Below are positions 18,023 to 64,000 of a stretch of DNA of 64,000 nt, one piece after another. The translations under genes and the position numbers were made by a program. Position 1 is the first letter of the stretch. Each line of letters opens with the position of its first letter. Source of the stretch: a virus; the IMG/VR virus record IMGVR_UViG_3300030098_004539, positions 18,619 to 82,618 of that record, one strand, 5' to 3'. The notes under the pieces were generated by a model. That model did not search any database. It was given only the letters and a program-made list of their open reading frames with translations, and was not told the DNA's origin.

Positions 18023-21000
18023 ATGTCAATATATAGCCCAGACGGTCCTAGAGTAGAAACTAAAGGGGCTTCTAATACAGAATGTATTGTCTTTGTGCAC
18101 ACACACGACAGAGGACCAAAGAACCCTTCTCAGTCGTTTGATTTATCTCCCTATATTACAGGCGTATCTACCTCCCAACATATAATGGGAGGGGGCTCTG
18201 CTTCTATAGATCTTCCAGCAGTCGATCACATCGAAGACATTATTGCTGCGGGAGATATCGTGAACATCTACTTCAATACCAATAGAAGTAGTGACAACAT
18301 GTATAACATTGGGAGAGTAAGGACTTTCTTTGGGTATATAACCAGTGTATCGAAGTCTGTTTCTGTGGGAGCAGAAGGAGAAAAGGTCACTACGTATGGG
18401 ATCTCCTGTAAAGATTTTAGTAAGTGTGTGAGAGACACTCAGATCTACAACAACCCACACTTAGCTAGTCAGGCCAGAGGTAGCAAAGAAGACGTTATCA
18501 GGAGCGACTTAAGCACAAACCTCGGAGGAATCGCACTCCTCCACCAAGGTATAGCTCTCCAAGGTACCCCCCGACAGATTATTGTACAAAACCTTATGCG
18601 ATTCTTAGGATTTGGAGGGCAGTGGGCACTCCCCCTCTCCTACGATGAAAAACTTCCGGGTAAGTCTTCGTGGACTTTTAAAGTTGATGAAGGGGGTAAA
18701 GGCTCTGTCATTAGTAGCTTACAAGCTATAACTGTGGAAATCCTTCGAGGAAAATCGAACACAGATGAAGCGCTTAGGAAAAAATATATAGACGCTATTG
18801 TAGCTCTTTCTAAACAGTCGATTGATAAAAAGAAAACTATATCTGCTCTGTGGGATAACGTAGATGAGTCAGGCGTGTCACCCAAAATTAAAGCGATCAT
18901 TGAAGAGCTTAAAGCAAAGTTTAAAAATCTATCATATAAGTTAGTACCCCCAAAAAATAAAGACGAAGAAAGTCATATAAATAACACCTTTTTTAAAATT
19001 AAAGGGGTTAACCAGAAAAAGATGTCTTCCAGCATATTGGGGACAGAAAACTCTACAGAAGTGACTTTAGAAGAGCAGGGCCTGTGGGGGGACATCCACA
19101 CAGTCACGTCGCGTGTTATCAACGAAATTGAAGGTGTATCAAAGGACACCTTGACTAATGCCCCTGATTCTTTTCCCAAAGCTAATCAATATGCTCAGGC
19201 TTTTGACTCCTCGGAAAACAATAGAAAAGTCAAAACCATGTTCAATATCATGTGTTTAGACTACATGGAAAACGTTAAAGGTTATTGGGCTAATCTTGCA
19301 GTTCTTAATTTTGCAGGCTCTTTATACTCTGCCCTAGAGGTAGGAGCAAACTCGTCTATGAACGAGTTAATCTTTGACCTTAGACCCTCTCCTGAGTTTG
19401 AAGCAAAAGAAAAAGACGGACTAGGTGTGCCTCTAAAAGGAGCTATTCCTATGGTTCCTGCGGTGGTCTTACGTAGAAAACCGTTTACTAATTATAAAGT
19501 TCCAGGGGCTAAGGAGGATATAGGAAAGGCAGATGTATCTGAGCACTTAGTCGTTGGAGGGTACCAATCGAAAGCTGGAAAATCAGGCTTTGACCAACTT
19601 GTAGTCAATAGTGGAGGAGCACTGGGCGTAGGAGGAGCTACTGCTATTGACGCTACTAGCATGGGTTCCGGTATGAAGGAGCGCGAAGCGGCTATTGACT
19701 TGCTATTAAAAAACTCAGGCGTGAATAAGGCGTTACAGGGTAAGTTCGAAACAATTCAATTAAAGCGAGTGACCCCTCCTACCAAAAAGAAATCTGCAAA
19801 ACTTGTTGGTGGTAAAAAAATTTTAGAGCGTTGGGCTAAAAAAATAGAAGAAATTGCAGAGAGGGCAGAGAAAGAAGGGGTTAACAATAACAAAGCGTTA
19901 GTTGAACTTTTCAGCGAAGCAACATCTGCAACAGTAACGGAAGATCAAATATATGAGATCCAATTAAGAGGAGCCAAGGTATCTACGCAATTAGCTAAAG
20001 CAGCGTTGACGTCTACTGTTACTTTGCCTCGTCCTATATTTAGATCTCCAGATAACAACAGAATCTTAAAAGAACTAGACATGTCTAGGACACAATACGT
20101 CTTAGGAGTTTTAGCCTCTATAGATGACACCTCAACTAGTACGAGTAAGTTTTTTGCTTTTGAAGCAGCGGACGGAGAAGGAATGGCCTACACTACCCGC
20201 ACGGCGAAAGATATCGGTTCAGGGAACGTAACAGGAACTACTAAAGCTGAAAAAGAGATCAAGCGCGTAGCTGTGGCTCCAGGCAGTGACATAAAGAGTA
20301 TTGCTGAAGAATTTAAAAGTCGTGCGGCTATTGTTGAAAAAGAAAATAAAGAAGCCGCAGACGTCAATGACCTTGACTGGCACGTTCTAGATTACATGAG
20401 TATCTTTCCAACCGATATTTTATCAGAAAATTATACAAGAGGAGATTTTGGGGTTGTTAATTTTTTAGAATACTTTGGAAAAACTATAGGAGGTTTTGAA
20501 GCCCAACGACTTTTCTTGGGTGTCGTCATGCCAATTGTTACTCCTATATCTGTGTACAGATTTGGTGTTCGAGTATTTTCTCAGACAACTGACTTCGTAC
20601 AGTCGTTACTTACGGGGAACTCCGAGCACCTTTTTGAAAAGAATATCTTACTAAGATGGGCTGTGTGCCAAGATATCTGGAACCAACATAACCATGAGTT
20701 GCTTGGCGGCAGCATGACTTTACGAGGCATGCCGGGTTTAAGACCCGGATACCGAATAGATAGACCCGACACTAACATGTCATTTTATGTAGAACAGGTA
20801 GCGCATTCGTGGACTTACCCAGGACGACTAGAAACTCAGGTTTCTGTGTCTCACGGCCAACCTATGAACCTAGAAAATGCTTTAGATTACTACAGACCTT
20901 CTTCAAGTGGGCCTCCACATAAAAGCGAGAGACAAAATCTAGGGAAGATATTTAAGGTGTCTGAGTTTAAACGAGGCGGTACGGATGTAAAACTAAGTAC

Positions 21001-59108: not shown

Positions 59109-60179
59109 ATGAAGATAGCTTTATATTCTGATCTACACGCACACCCCTACAGTAACGGAAAGCTCCTAGAGCACGGTACGAACAGCCGTGTTCAAGACGC
59201 TGTAAATGTTATTGAGCAGGTGTACTCTTATTCACTAGAGAATGATGTGGACTATGTGTTTTTCGGAGGAGATCTTTTCGACAAACGCAAGTCGATCGAC
59301 GTAGATACGTATAACCAGATACATGAGACGATTCAGCACTGGTCTAGTCGTGTACCTACGATTATGATTCCAGGTAATCATGACCAGGCAAACAAATCTG
59401 GGAGCATCCATGCCCTCCAGAGGTTTCAATCTAAAGATTGTCTCGTAGCTAGTGAACCTGGGTGGTACGACCTCGGGGAGGGGGTACATCTTTTTGCTGT
59501 GCCTTACTACGATGATGGAGAAGTGATAGCGGATCACGTAACAGAAGGTCTAAAGAGTAAGCCGGAAGGGAAAAGGCACCTCTTGATGGTTCATTACGGC
59601 ATATCGGGAGCCAAAGTTGGTCCCTCTGATTACGTACTTCCGTGTGAACTTAACCTTTCTATGCTTCACCTGGATGAGTGGAGTAAGATTTTCAGTGGCC
59701 ACTACCATATAGGCCAGCAGCTAGGGAGTAAGTTCCACTACATAGGGTCTGCAATGCAGCACAGGTGGGACGACGTAGGTTTTGAGAAAAGTTTTGTAGT
59801 TTACTCGTCGGGGAGAAACTCCATAAAACGTATACCTACCCAAGCTCCTGAGTTTCTTGAAATGCGTGCGGGTGAAAAACCCAAAGTCAAAAATTGTTTC
59901 GTCCGAGTAGTTAGTGAATCTGAAATAGAGGAGGAAGAACAAGACGAGATAGTTAGTCGCCTTTTGGAGGAGGGGGCGTTATCAGTAGAGTTTAGGTATG
60001 AGCCTGAGTCTGTAAATAAGGGAAAGGCTGAGAGAATTGAGTTCTCTGAGTCGGGTGGTGAATATCAGATTTTGGATGACTATCTGTCATCAGATCTGGT
60101 AGACGTCTCGGCGCTTGACGTCGATAAATTACTTAATATTGGTAAGGAAATACTCACCTTAGCCCTGGAAGATAAATGA
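59109..60179 (+). CDS. SbcD/gp47-like nuclease subunit (metallophosphoesterase)
   Basis: 356 residues. Phosphoesterase motifs: YSDLHAHPYS (Asp8, His10), GGDLFD (near 53), GNHD (near 89), an MVHYG His (near 161), and GHYH (near 197). This is the SbcD/Mre11/T4 gp47 arrangement, with a 150-residue C-terminal capping region. Partner gp46/SbcC is not in the window. Together they would resect DNA ends for recombination. Ends in an ATGA overlap with the endolysin gene. Confidence 0.8.
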   Translation: MKIALYSDLHAHPYSNGKLLEHGTNSRVQDAVNVIEQVYSYSLENDVDYVFFGGDLFDKRKSIDVDTYNQIHETIQHWSSRVPTIMIPGNHDQANKSGSIHALQRFQSKDCLVASEPGWYDLGEGVHLFAVPYYDDGEVIADHVTEGLKSKPEGKRHLLMVHYGISGAKVGPSDYVLPCELNLSMLHLDEWSKIFSGHYHIGQQLGSKFHYIGSAMQHRWDDVGFEKSFVVYSSGRNSIKRIPTQAPEFLEMRAGEKPKVKNCFVRVVSESEIEEEEQDEIVSRLLEEGALSVEFRYEPESVNKGKAERIEFSESGGEYQILDDYLSSDLVDVSALDVDKLLNIGKEILTLALEDK

Positions 60180-60841
60180 AATTTATTATAAGTATTTTAA
60201 CGTTATTGTTCCTTATGTTCGACACTTCTGCGTTTGCGAGTAAGTGGTATGCAAATTACCTTAAAGATAAATGTGCCGAATGTATTGAGTGTTGTTATAA
60301 AGGAAAGGTTAAACGTGTGTCTTTCACTCAGTTTGACACTGCGCTTTTAGAAGTAGCCCGCACCAAATGTGCTAACGCTCGTCCCGAACGCGTGGACATG
60401 GAGCTTTTAAAGGACCTTCTATCTATAGAGAAGCGTTTGAATGTCCCCGAAAAATATCGAGGGGCTGTGTTAGCGGCAGCGTGTAGAGAGTCTGGGTATA
60501 ACCCTCTTCCTCGTAACGGGGACGGTGGGAAAGCAAAAGGCCTTCTTCAACTGCATCCGTGGTGGGAAAAGAGGTTTAAGGTGAACCGGGCAGATCCGGT
60601 AGCTTCTACTATAGTGTGGATGTCTCAGATATTGCGATCTGTCCCTAAAGCTAAGAGGAAGTGCGGTAAGCGCCGCGCTTTTGTGTCAGCCTGGGCGTGG
60701 GTAGCTTCAGGACCTAAGGGGTGGCGGTGTAGGAGCCCTCGACACGCAGGAACCCTTAAGCGGTGGCACAGGGCTGTACGACGTTCTATAGAGACACGCC
60801 GGCAGACCGATGGGACGGACTATAAACGCCTCACTAAGTAG
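60176..60841 (+). CDS. Exported lytic transglycosylase-type endolysin
   Basis: 221 residues. A signal peptide (about 1-22, cleavage after SAFA) is followed by a short Cys cluster (CAECIECC). The SLT-like core has the catalytic Glu in RESGYNP (Glu105), then GKAKGLLQLHP, typical of soluble lytic transglycosylases. The C-terminus is basic. It would cut peptidoglycan after export. It starts within the previous stop (ATGA) and ends head-to-head with the minus-strand gene, with no terminator between them. Confidence 0.7.
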   Translation: MKFIISILTLLFLMFDTSAFASKWYANYLKDKCAECIECCYKGKVKRVSFTQFDTALLEVARTKCANARPERVDMELLKDLLSIEKRLNVPEKYRGAVLAAACRESGYNPLPRNGDGGKAKGLLQLHPWWEKRFKVNRADPVASTIVWMSQILRSVPKAKRKCGKRRAFVSAWAWVASGPKGWRCRSPRHAGTLKRWHRAVRRSIETRRQTDGTDYKRLTK

Positions 60842-61183
60842 TTAGATAAGGACAAGCAGGGGGTCTTCTTCGTTGCCGGTAGCAGGAGACTGTTTAGGCG
60901 AATTAGCAGGAACCCCCTGCATGCCCTTGTTCACTTCGATACACCCCGCGTTTATAAGGCGAATAGTGGTACCCATCTCTACGGAGTAGAACTCAATGAC
61001 ACCTGTAGACTCTACCCGCATAGACCCGATTATCTCGCCCATAAAGACAGGGTTTCCGTCGATAAAGCACCCTACGAAACTTTTATAGACAGGTACGGGT
61101 TCTGGCTTAGGTGGAGGGCTACACCTCCCTAAAAAAAGAATTAAAATTAATGCGGCTATGGCGAGCAGAGTTTTTTTATTCAC
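60842..61183 (-). CDS. Membrane-anchored small protein, possible o-spanin-like
   Basis: 113 residues, GTG start overlapping the upstream gene by 8 bp (same minus-strand unit). One hydrophobic segment (about 7-20) is followed by LGRCSPPPKPEPVPVYK, a Pro-rich linker like that of small outer-membrane spanins or lipoproteins. The residue before Cys is Arg, so a classical lipobox is doubtful. The rest is a small beta domain with two Cys (VGCF, AGCI). Ends exactly where the endolysin gene ends. Role unknown. Confidence 0.5.
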   Translation of the reverse strand: MNKKTLLAIAALILILFLGRCSPPPKPEPVPVYKSFVGCFIDGNPVFMGEIIGSMRVESTGVIEFYSVEMGTTIRLINAGCIEVNKGMQGVPANSPKQSPATGNEEDPLLVLI

Positions 61184-62990
61184 AGATATTCTCGTCTAAA
61201 ATGTCGATAAGGTTGTGGTACATGGGGAGGACGTCGTAAGTTAGTTCAAACCATTTGCCGCCTGTCCCTGTAGCCACTTCCCCCCACGTCTCTTTGGCTT
61301 CGTATACTGGCGGAGTAAAAACATATATTTTTAGGTTAGGTACTCCAGCCGCTGTGCTTAAGACGTTCTGGATGGAGATGCTGGGTTTCATAAACGTTTG
61401 AAATGGTTCGTCGGTAAATACGATGATCACCTTGTTGGTGTTTTCCCTCCACGAAACTGAGAACTTATCTATTTCGGGGTAGGACTTTATGGACCCTTTC
61501 CACTTAAATCCGAACTTGTCTTGATAAGCAGGACTCCCACTTATGTCGTGCAAGATGAGGTAAAGAGCGTCCCCCAACATTTCTTTACTTCCTGTTTGGG
61601 ATAAATTTACTGCTACTGATATTTTAACAGAAAATACAGAAAACGAGGTTAAATCAGTTATTAAATGAAGCTCTTCCTTAAAAGTTTTTATGAAAGGGCC
61701 TTTGATTAATGACCACAGGATTACTTCTTCGTCGGAGTAGTTCTTTGCAAACAGTCCTAGAGCTTGGGAAACGGCAGCGATTTCCATATCCATACTACCC
61801 GACCAATCTAGTATGAAGACTATGTCGGTTTCCTGGAGTTCTTTACCTTCATCTACGATACCGTCGCAGTTATCGTCTACGCCGTTGCAGTTATCTTTAT
61901 CTTCAGGAACGATTTCCCCCGCACATAGATTAGGGTGGAATAGCCCGTCTTTGTCGCTTCCCCACACTCCTTGATTGCAGTAGACCTCTCCTGCTTGGCA
62001 GATCCCTACGTTGAGTGTTCCACTTTCTCCTGTATAGCAGGCAGAGAATAGGTCTTCGTCAATCAAGTGGTTACAGTTATCGTCAAAGTTATTACACTCT
62101 TCCTCTTCTTTAGGTGCTCCAGCGTAAGGATCACACGCTTCATTGGTAGGGAAGTAGTGACAGGCGGCGTAACACGGAGTGGTGATGATCGAGGTACAGT
62201 CTGGGTCTTCGCACACACAGGTTTTAAACCCTTCTCCGCAGAGAAGAGGAGGCTCTGTGCACGGGAAAAGAGTCCCTACGTCTTTGACGGTGCAAGCACA
62301 GTCTAGCCCTTCGTCTATTTGTCCGTTACAGTTGTTGTCGAGGCCGTCGCATATCTCGTCTACAGGGACTTGGGCTGTACAAGAAACCCAGTTCCCATCT
62401 TCACAATATTCAATACCTACACCACAGTCGGTAGAACACTCTTGTACTAAGTCCTCATCAGTTTGTCCGTTACAGTCGTTGTCAACTCCGTCACAGATTT
62501 CTTGTGGGGGAGACCCGCATCCTCCACAAAGATTTGTCTGCCCTTCGTCTATTTGTCCGTCACAGTTGTTGTCTTTTCCGTCGCAAATTTCTTCTGAACA
62601 AGGACTTATGCACTCTCCGTACTGGAATGTTCCTTTGTTACAGTATTTCTTTCGTTTCCCTGGGTACCCTTCGAGTGTAAAACACGCCTCTTCTCCTTGG
62701 AGGAATATAGAAGGGTCGCACTCGAACAACTCTTCGCACTCTCCGGTAGATATGACTTGGGGAGGGTCTACACAAATATCTACTACTACAGGGCGCTGCC
62801 AAATGGCGTTGTGAGGCGGGCAGAACCAATACTGTGTGCGATGGCAGTCTGCTTCGTAAGTGTCTGGAGAAGATAGACTTTCTATGTCTTTTATATCTTC
62901 TTGTATCGGTAAGGGAGAAGGTCCGCATGCGGGTAAACAAATGGGTACCGCTATTAAAAACAATATTAGATTTGATCTAGTAATAATCAT
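61176..62990 (-). CDS. Surface lipoprotein with MopE-type repeats and von Willebrand A domain
   Basis: 604 residues from ATG 62990 (a TTG 4 codons earlier is possible). The signal peptide ends in LPAC, a good lipobox. A Cys-rich region holds five MopE-type repeats (EICDGKDNNCDGQIDEG near 133, and four more near 163, 212, 296 and 365), each with Cys and Asp at positions suited to metal binding. A von Willebrand A domain follows: FILDWSGSMDM (DxSxS, MIDAS, near 389) and VIIVFTDEP. Such proteins face the outside and bind metals or partners. Rare in phages; it looks like a captured host gene, with its own minus-strand unit. Confidence 0.75.
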   Translation of the reverse strand: MIITRSNLILFLIAVPICLPACGPSPLPIQEDIKDIESLSSPDTYEADCHRTQYWFCPPHNAIWQRPVVVDICVDPPQVISTGECEELFECDPSIFLQGEEACFTLEGYPGKRKKYCNKGTFQYGECISPCSEEICDGKDNNCDGQIDEGQTNLCGGCGSPPQEICDGVDNDCNGQTDEDLVQECSTDCGVGIEYCEDGNWVSCTAQVPVDEICDGLDNNCNGQIDEGLDCACTVKDVGTLFPCTEPPLLCGEGFKTCVCEDPDCTSIITTPCYAACHYFPTNEACDPYAGAPKEEEECNNFDDNCNHLIDEDLFSACYTGESGTLNVGICQAGEVYCNQGVWGSDKDGLFHPNLCAGEIVPEDKDNCNGVDDNCDGIVDEGKELQETDIVFILDWSGSMDMEIAAVSQALGLFAKNYSDEEVILWSLIKGPFIKTFKEELHLITDLTSFSVFSVKISVAVNLSQTGSKEMLGDALYLILHDISGSPAYQDKFGFKWKGSIKSYPEIDKFSVSWRENTNKVIIVFTDEPFQTFMKPSISIQNVLSTAAGVPNLKIYVFTPPVYEAKETWGEVATGTGGKWFELTYDVLPMYHNLIDILDENICE

Positions 62991-63063
62991 AGTTAACAGC
63001 AATACATTAAGTCTATTAACTATGTTTAGGTTGGTTTAGTACCTAGTCAAGAAATATATATTT

Positions 63064-64000
63064 TTATACTTTTCCTTCTGCGTAAATAGCTGAACGAATA
63101 CCTTCGTCTCCGTCAACAAGAACAGCAGCTATGATCTTACGGTTTCCTACGTAACCTTTACGTGCATGCCACCGGTCCTCGCCTGACAAACTTGGAAGTT
63201 GGTAGCGTACAAATCCCCGGTCTTCCACTACTTTTTCGGAGTGCAAGTGTCCTGTGAAAACCATGTGGTGGTCACATTTTCCCCAGGAATCTGAAGCTTC
63301 TACAGCAGCTAGTCTTGCTAGATCAGATGTTTTGCTTACACCGTCTCCGTGGTGAAAACATAGAAGATTGTTCTTATAAACAATGTATTGTCGAGAATGG
63401 CCCGACTTGATGGTTGTGACATCGTCACAGTGGCGGTACCAAGCCTGAAGGTAAAGATGAAGGCTGATACTTAATAGCTGGTCATGGTTACCAGACATTA
63501 ACACCATCTCAACAGGAGCTACTTGGCGCAGTAAGTCGATGTAGTCACTCATCATCTCGCAACCGGTTGCTAAGATCTCCGACATGTTACCGTCGTTATC
63601 TTGGGGCGTACCTCGTGCCGTAGTAGCGTTATAAGTATCGGCGTTAAAAAAGTCAGAACCTAAACCAATAATGATTTTTTCAGGACGACCGTGTTTAGCC
63701 ACGACTGATAATACTTTTTCCGTAGAACTAATGAGCCTTTCTCGGGCAGTAGGTCGGTCGTATTTTTCACCACACTCAAAAACGTCTCCGTACTTTCCCC
63801 AGTGAAAGTCTGTAGGGCTAATTACAGCGACAAAGTCTTTGTCTGCTTTAGGAAGGTTGAGTTTAGGAACTTTTTTTGCTCCACCTTTTCTCACTACGTT
63901 TTCTAGTTTTTTGAGAGTGTGAGCTTCGTACTCTTGCCACTTTCTAGCGTCTGCTTGGATACCCTTCCACTTATCTCTTTCTAAACGTGTGTAAAGAGCG
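63064..64000 (-). CDS. Metallophosphoesterase, N-terminus cut by window edge
   Basis: Stop at 63064; the frame is open to the right edge without a stop and has no ATG there, so the gene begins outside. The visible part has about 311 residues: a charged helical segment, then phosphoesterase motifs SPTDFHWG, GLGSDFF, MSGNHDQLL, CFHHGDGV and FTGHLHSE, all with the metal-binding Asp/His/Asn. The fold suggests a phage serine/threonine phosphatase or nuclease-like enzyme. It is not the SbcD type encoded at 59.1 kb, as spacing and flanks differ. Confidence 0.8.
   Translation of the reverse strand, partial: ALYTRLERDKWKGIQADARKWQEYEAHTLKKLENVVRKGGAKKVPKLNLPKADKDFVAVISPTDFHWGKYGDVFECGEKYDRPTARERLISSTEKVLSVVAKHGRPEKIIIGLGSDFFNADTYNATTARGTPQDNDGNMSEILATGCEMMSDYIDLLRQVAPVEMVLMSGNHDQLLSISLHLYLQAWYRHCDDVTTIKSGHSRQYIVYKNNLLCFHHGDGVSKTSDLARLAAVEASDSWGKCDHHMVFTGHLHSEKVVEDRGFVRYQLPSLSGEDRWHARKGYVGNRKIIAAVLVDGDEGIRSAIYAEGKV

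Follow-up and report, generated by a model that had tools for sequence, protein, structure and literature searches.

A predicted phage lipoprotein with MopE-type repeats and an integrin-like vWA head, conserved among uncultured phages

Introduction

Why would a phage encode a protein with the features of a bacterial surface lipoprotein, and what might it do in the infected cell? We considered this question for a 64,000-nucleotide stretch of viral DNA (positions 18,619 to 82,618 of the IMG/VR record IMGVR_UViG_3300030098_004539), hereafter called the window. The preliminary description of this DNA had proposed that a gene on its minus strand encodes a lipoprotein built of five MopE-type repeats and a vWA domain with a MIDAS, that the gene overlaps a partner gene and is placed like a moron, that such a protein is unusual in a phage genome, and that its repeats point to a host in the Myxococcota or relatives, from which it might have been captured; a change of the host surface (superinfection exclusion), metal binding and adhesion were offered as possible roles. 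Here, we ask how far the sequence, its relatives and structural modelling bear out this picture, and which function they favour.

Results

The MopE-vWA gene (Table 1) encodes a protein of 604 amino acids, and its reading frame (61176-63002, minus strand) is open and intact, with the ATG at 62990 as the likely start codon. Read from this codon, the protein begins MIITRSNLILFLIAVPICLPAC. It carries a signal peptide followed by a lipobox Cys, the combination by which bacterial lipoproteins are recognised, and is predicted from its sequence to be lipidated. The lipoprotein signal on which the preliminary description hinged is thus present, and in 39 of 39 aligned homologues the lipid-attachment residue, Cys22, is invariant and the residue after it is never Asp. 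The Cys-rich N-terminal domain that follows has no Pfam match and belongs to no known family. An AlphaFold2 model of the whole protein reached a mean pLDDT of 85.3, with C-terminal blocks mostly at 90-97. The proposed architecture of lipobox, five repeats and vWA MIDAS is borne out by the lipobox itself, the score of the Pfam family PF11617 and the AlphaFold2 and Foldseek results.

Table 1. Features of the MopE-vWA locus; positions are those of the window unless a contig is named.
Feature	Position	Strand	Basis or remark
SbcD-like gene, left border of insertion	59109..60179	+	phrog_100, E=1e-53
Convergent exported protein, lytic-transglycosylase-like motif (CRESGYNP...GLLQ)	60176..60841	+	Motif only
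Small predicted lipoprotein gene, 113 aa (...FLGRCSPPPKPEP...)	60842..61183	-	8-nt overlap with MopE-vWA gene; own lipoprotein signal
MopE-vWA predicted lipoprotein gene	61176..62990	-	ATG at 62990; alternative start TTG 63002
vWA domain, residues 386-604, integrin-beta-like	61179..61835	-	AlphaFold2 pLDDT mostly >90; Foldseek; family profile
MIDAS Asp527	61410..61412	-	Invariant, 39/39
MIDAS Glu470, where usual Thr would be	61581..61583	-	Invariant, 39/39
MIDAS motif D395-W-S397-G-S399	61794..61808	-	D, S, S invariant, 39/39
MopE-type repeat 5 (CNGVDDNCDGIVD)	61851..61889	-	Motif
MopE-type repeat 4 (CNNFDDNCNHLID)	62058..62096	-	Motif
MopE-type repeat 3 (CDGLDNNCNGQID)	62313..62351	-	Pfam and motif
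MopE-type repeat 2 (CDGVDNDCNGQTD)	62457..62495	-	Pfam and motif
MopE-type repeat 1 (CDGKDNNCDGQID)	62547..62585	-	Pfam and motif
Cys-rich N-terminal beta domain, residues 42-130 (QYWFCPPH...)	62601..62867	-	Alignment; model pLDDT about 71-89
Signal peptide, residues 1-21, ending CLPA, then Cys22 (lipobox)	62928..62990	-	Cys kept in 39/39 homologues
Upstream (first) cassette gene, 3' part, DNA repair exonuclease/phosphoesterase	63064..63999	-	phrog_704; runs past window edge
SbcC-like gene, beyond cassette	L056:1184-3112		phrog_77, E=1.6e-118

In a Pfam search, PF11617 (MopE) scored 69.9 bits on the protein (cut-off, 27) over four stretches, and this family matches all 39 homologues at E<=1. 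Five repeats of the CDGxDNxCxG type start at residues 136, 166, 214, 299 and 368, and the number of repeat motifs per family member, counted with one pattern, ranges from two to eight. The repeat CDGxDNDCDGxID may be likened to calcium-binding DxDxDG loops; EF-hand matches were weak and were seen in 3 of the 39 members. Copper binding, which the name MopE might suggest, found no support and was set aside as the default reading: the copper site sits in MopE*, and a profile of the phage family matched no MopE structure in the PDB. The Cu(I) site of MopE* from Methylococcus capsulatus consists of two His residues and a kynurenine (PMC3423442), and with the M. capsulatus protein the phage family shares only the name of the repeat family. 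Similar repeats also occur outside the vWA family, in a viral-contig protein (L025:6476-8671) that matches only query residues 138-386.

Does the C-terminal part form a vWA head? The Pfam vWA family PF00092 scored 15.6 bits on the window protein, below its cut-off of 23.8, and matched 36 of the 39 homologues at E<=1 (best, 1.7e-6). In contrast, Foldseek with the AlphaFold2 model retrieved integrin headpieces and I domains at a probability of 1.00, with an integrin headpiece chain as the top match, and TM-scores by target length against integrin I domains were 0.6-0.69. As modelled, the C-terminal domain has a vWA fold with a MIDAS. Across the 39 aligned proteins, the residues D395, S397, S399, E470, D474, R515, D527 and Q531 never vary, W514 is kept in 38, and Glu470 always lies four residues before Asp474. 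In the WR motif (residues 514 and 515), the Arg precedes Asp527 by 12 residues in most members, including the window protein, and by 14 in three.

The nearest known structures are integrins. A profile of the full family had integrin beta-8 as its best PDB match (E=0.0034, spanning the vWA domain), and with the vWA part alone integrin beta-8 was the only PDB match (E=0.55); the spacing of 12 between WR and Asp is identical in this ungapped alignment. Judged from its residues, the MIDAS is of the integrin-beta type, with Glu for Thr and the WR motif, just as the integrin beta I-like domain (PF00362) has DxSxS, Glu at the third MIDAS position and WR 12 residues before the last Asp. In two members (L022 and L053) the distance from Glu to Asp is 31, which equals that between E220 and D251 of integrin beta3, whereas in most phage members the stretch from Glu470 to Asp527 is longer by about 25-35 residues; no sign of other integrin domains was seen in the phage proteins. 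Because PF00362 itself matched only 3 of the 39 members (best E=0.023), we describe a head that would work like integrin beta, without membership in that family.

How widespread is the protein? In two scans of IMG/VR contigs for relatives, full-length or partial and with the vWA module in common, at least 42 further contigs were found to encode them. Among the 39 distinct proteins aligned, identity to the window protein ranges from 33 to 65%, and in three pairs unsaturated at synonymous sites dN/dS (Nei-Gojobori) was 0.05-0.08, which indicates strong purifying selection on the family. Invariant MIDAS ligands at such identities, together with the low dN/dS, suggest that a function has been kept and that it probably rests on the metal site. 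A chance reading frame or a pseudogene was ruled out by the same ratios and by the rarity of the DWSGSM pattern (residues 395-400), whose degenerate DNA form occurs once in the window against 0.01 expected.

The preliminary description had called the protein unusual in a phage genome. This holds for cultured phages, in that tblastn against 50,697 phage records found no relative with either the window protein or a T4-like relative as query; it does not hold for uncultured ones, in which the family is conserved and occurs in more than one lineage. Of 36 records searched, 12 have the T4-type Gp23, and Gp23-positive and Gp23-negative records are interspersed on the family tree. Because many records are fragments, the absence of Gp23 means little for most of them; nevertheless, the Gp23 carriers and the SPO1-like capsid of the record containing the window (G000) together show that the gene is present in two or more unrelated types of phage. 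A T4-only gene is ruled out by G000, which has no Gp23 and a capsid protein closest to SPO1-like phages. Among the carrier contigs, a T4-like one has a tmRNA gene (L009:16712-17063; tag ANDNVANYALAA), and another encodes a Tubulin/FtsZ-like protein (L011:15162-16208).

What kind of genome surrounds the window gene? The record comprises 128,195 bases. Over 139 bases its two termini (L055 start, L058 end) are the same but for one mismatch, which makes a complete genome of about 128.06 kb probable. The genome belongs to a myovirus, in which portal, major head protein, tail sheath, baseplate wedge and terminase match PHROGs; no integrase was found in it. The best matches of its capsid protein (L055:15395-16825), at 41-46% identity, are SPO1-like Bacillus and related phages, and its terminase is nearest, at about 30% identity, to those of Aeromonas ST4, Pseudomonas and Thermus phages. 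The SPO1-like phages nearest by capsid are phages of Gram-positive hosts.

Among 97 selected reading frames of at least 100 aa in this genome, five pieces have minus-strand orientation: four make up a three-gene cassette of the exonuclease gene (split by the window edge), the MopE-vWA gene and the small lipoprotein gene, and the fifth is an isolated 140-aa reading frame. The cassette is the sole one on the minus strand in about 128 kb, and it separates the SbcD-like from the SbcC-like gene, an arrangement that is identical in the relative L006. The strand map thus confirms both the orientation opposite to the replication genes and the moron-like position that had been proposed. The overlapping partner gene is likewise real, beginning with a lipoprotein signal of its own; it is conserved in the nearest relatives (L005 and L006), and Pfam, PHROGs, NCBIfam and PADLOC gave no significant family match for its product.

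Could the protein be an accessory of lysis? An outer-membrane lipoprotein might, together with phage peptidoglycan hydrolases and exported proteases, remodel and weaken the envelope late in infection, and several neighbours would suit such a role. The lytic-transglycosylase-like exported protein adjoins the cassette in the window and in L006; it has no Pfam family, and its AlphaFold2 model (pLDDT 42.5) was too poor to confirm a transglycosylase fold. In other contigs, adjacent genes encode SLT transglycosylases (L028, L038 and L041), VanY (L024) and an amidase (L014). A lipoprotein of about 200 aa with the pattern HELVHLAL...DHEG, which by this HExxH signature is likely a zinc metallopeptidase, is encoded downstream of the MopE-vWA gene, either next to it or a short way off, in eight contigs (L007, L011-L015, L019 and L037; for example, L013:11722-12333), the L013 copy having no significant NCBIfam or PADLOC match. 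A lipoprotein with an HtrA/trypsin-like domain adjoins the gene in another contig (L018:5448-6500) and has look-alikes in L045 and L047, and there are further lipoproteins among the adjacent genes. Moreover, lipoprotein signals are commoner within two genes of the family (7/152) than elsewhere (6/748; Fisher p=0.002).

This excess, however, comes from only three lineages, with related contigs counted separately and a crude predictor that missed 15 of the 39 family members. Likewise, the five Pfam peptidoglycan hydrolases among 145 nearby genes stand against three genes with peptidoglycan-binding domains among 144 distant ones (among the 25 commonest families listed), so that the enrichment of peptidoglycan enzymes near the gene is weak. 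The amidase and the second transglycosylase of G000 lie about 75 kb away, the SLT gene of G021 and G022 lies about 14-15 kb away, the neighbours are not fixed, and the flanking genes appear to be early or middle ones. We consider a role in lysis unlikely; the idea of a fixed lysis cassette, in particular, loses weight in view of the distant-gene control and of endolysin genes that lie far away. We also noted a short protein that looks FlbD-like, that is, flagellar (L016:9532-9861, minus strand), and the close neighbours scanned gave one FlbD Pfam match (E=7e-18).

Did the gene come from a cellular host? Patterns from the vWA profile were compared with 84,980 bacterial and archaeal genomes, in which 47 stretches were found and two passed: one in Enterococcus that spans 26 residues and one on a 7-kb contig of a Halieaceae MAG. 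None was found in Myxococcota by this pattern scan, which would miss distant relatives. The Halieaceae contig (L026:5703-7109) has bacterial genes beside a truncated phage-like reading frame with a VGVGVG stretch near its start, and we rejected it as a cellular homologue because it is probably an assembly chimera within a species-representative genome; in an HMM search of 399 genomes of the same phylum, that MAG was the only match. Plasmid matches were partial and repeat-based, the best being in Persicobacter (Bacteroidota; E=5e-5). The protein on the Sandaracinus (Myxococcota) plasmid pSa001 (E=8e-4) resembles the phage protein in its CNG-DDDC-DG units followed by CxxxCGxxG and in a PF11617 score over the cut-off, but what aligns is 26% of the query, chiefly repeats, and the vWA head is left unmatched. 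We call the family virus-specific provisionally, since the pattern scan would miss distant relatives and covered Myxococcota weakly.

These results bear on the idea that the gene is a generic MopE-type surface gene, carried as cargo for the fitness of the host and recently captured from a Myxococcota-like one. The similar repeat units of the Sandaracinus protein and the isolation of the minus-strand cassette would fit a moron of this kind. On the other hand, the further viral contigs have a vWA module of their own, which, the one probable chimera aside, was not found in the cellular genomes scanned; the GC content of the gene (0.452) matches that of the window (0.449); and no integrase was found in 12 long carrier records. 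With no sister clade of host proteins found, recent capture is not supported, and neither is a Myxococcota host, because the closest cellular matches are confined to repeats and come from Bacteroidota as well as Myxococcota. We regard this origin and role as very unlikely.

Discussion

What, then, might the protein do? The lipoprotein signals and the invariance of the MIDAS argue for an exported, cation-dependent binding protein. We propose that it is made by the phage during infection, secreted and held by a lipid anchor in the infected cell, facing the surface or the periplasm. Its N-terminal Cys would receive the lipid, and if the E. coli +2 rule applies, the protein would end up in the outer membrane when the host is a diderm. 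The disulfide-rich, Asp/Glu-rich MopE-type repeats would make a stiff stalk, with calcium as a probable brace, that presents the vWA head, and the integrin-beta-type MIDAS of this head would hold a divalent cation and bind an acidic group of a partner protein. If that partner were an envelope component serving as a phage receptor, its engagement would stop further adsorption or DNA entry. Superinfection exclusion is thus the use that we think most likely for a head binding a target in the host envelope, a reading that we hold tentatively and with somewhat less than even confidence.

Two further observations favour exclusion. First, the flanks of the gene in other phages are often replication or nucleotide genes (Thy1, DnaB, gp32, RecA and RNR), which suggests early or middle expression, and expression at that stage would favour a change of the host surface such as superinfection exclusion. 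Second, the lack of an integrase in the long carriers fits virulent phages, for which early exclusion pays. A precedent is Llp of phage T5, a small, early-expressed protein that plugs FhuA and whose gene adjoins the one for the receptor-binding protein (PMC9586334). Like Llp and Cor, the window protein is a phage-encoded, predicted lipoprotein, and exclusion, by analogy, would resemble that by Llp with an unrelated protein. However, the phage family proteins have about 600-750 aa and a vWA head, a size well beyond that of the small lipoproteins known for exclusion, and no recognised receptor-binding-protein gene adjoins the window gene. Envelope hydrolases as neighbours in several lineages would fit lysis equally. 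PADLOC profiles of anti-phage defence gave no match at E<=0.01.

A stalk with an integrin-like head might also serve as an adhesin, sticking infected cells to other cells, to particles or to virions and so aiding transmission or changing predation. The E-type MIDAS, a fold and a profile closest to integrin domains, the variable length of the stalk and a legume-lectin match among the close neighbours would all be consistent with this, but clumping might hinder the spread of virions, and we consider an adhesin rather improbable. A structural protein of the virion, decorating tail or head, is extremely improbable: vWA proteins are known in other viruses, some with proposed roles in virion assembly (PMC7824862), but all members of the present family have a signal peptide and lipobox, and the gene lies outside the structural block of G000. 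The vWA proteins that phages use inside the cell, namely TerF and the chaperone pair MoxR-vWA, have the same fold, and no lipoprotein with a repeat stalk is described among them (PMC7824862), whereas the MopE-vWA protein combines a lipoprotein signal with such a stalk.

Taken as a family, the MopE-vWA proteins represent a widespread and conserved set of predicted surface proteins of uncultured large phages, unmatched in the cultured-phage collection or in PHROGs, and their invariant putative metal-binding site offers a target for point mutants. It is possible, if somewhat doubtful, that large virulent phages of several unrelated lineages share dedicated integrin-like, lipid-anchored surface receptors, in which a repeat stalk bears a head with an integrin-beta-type metal site; that these were passed from phage to phage and not captured singly from hosts; and that they serve to display a binding protein of the phage on infected cells. 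If the protein does exclude phages or alter adhesion, it would represent a new class of surface receptors that phages make, and it would help to identify the hosts of these phages.
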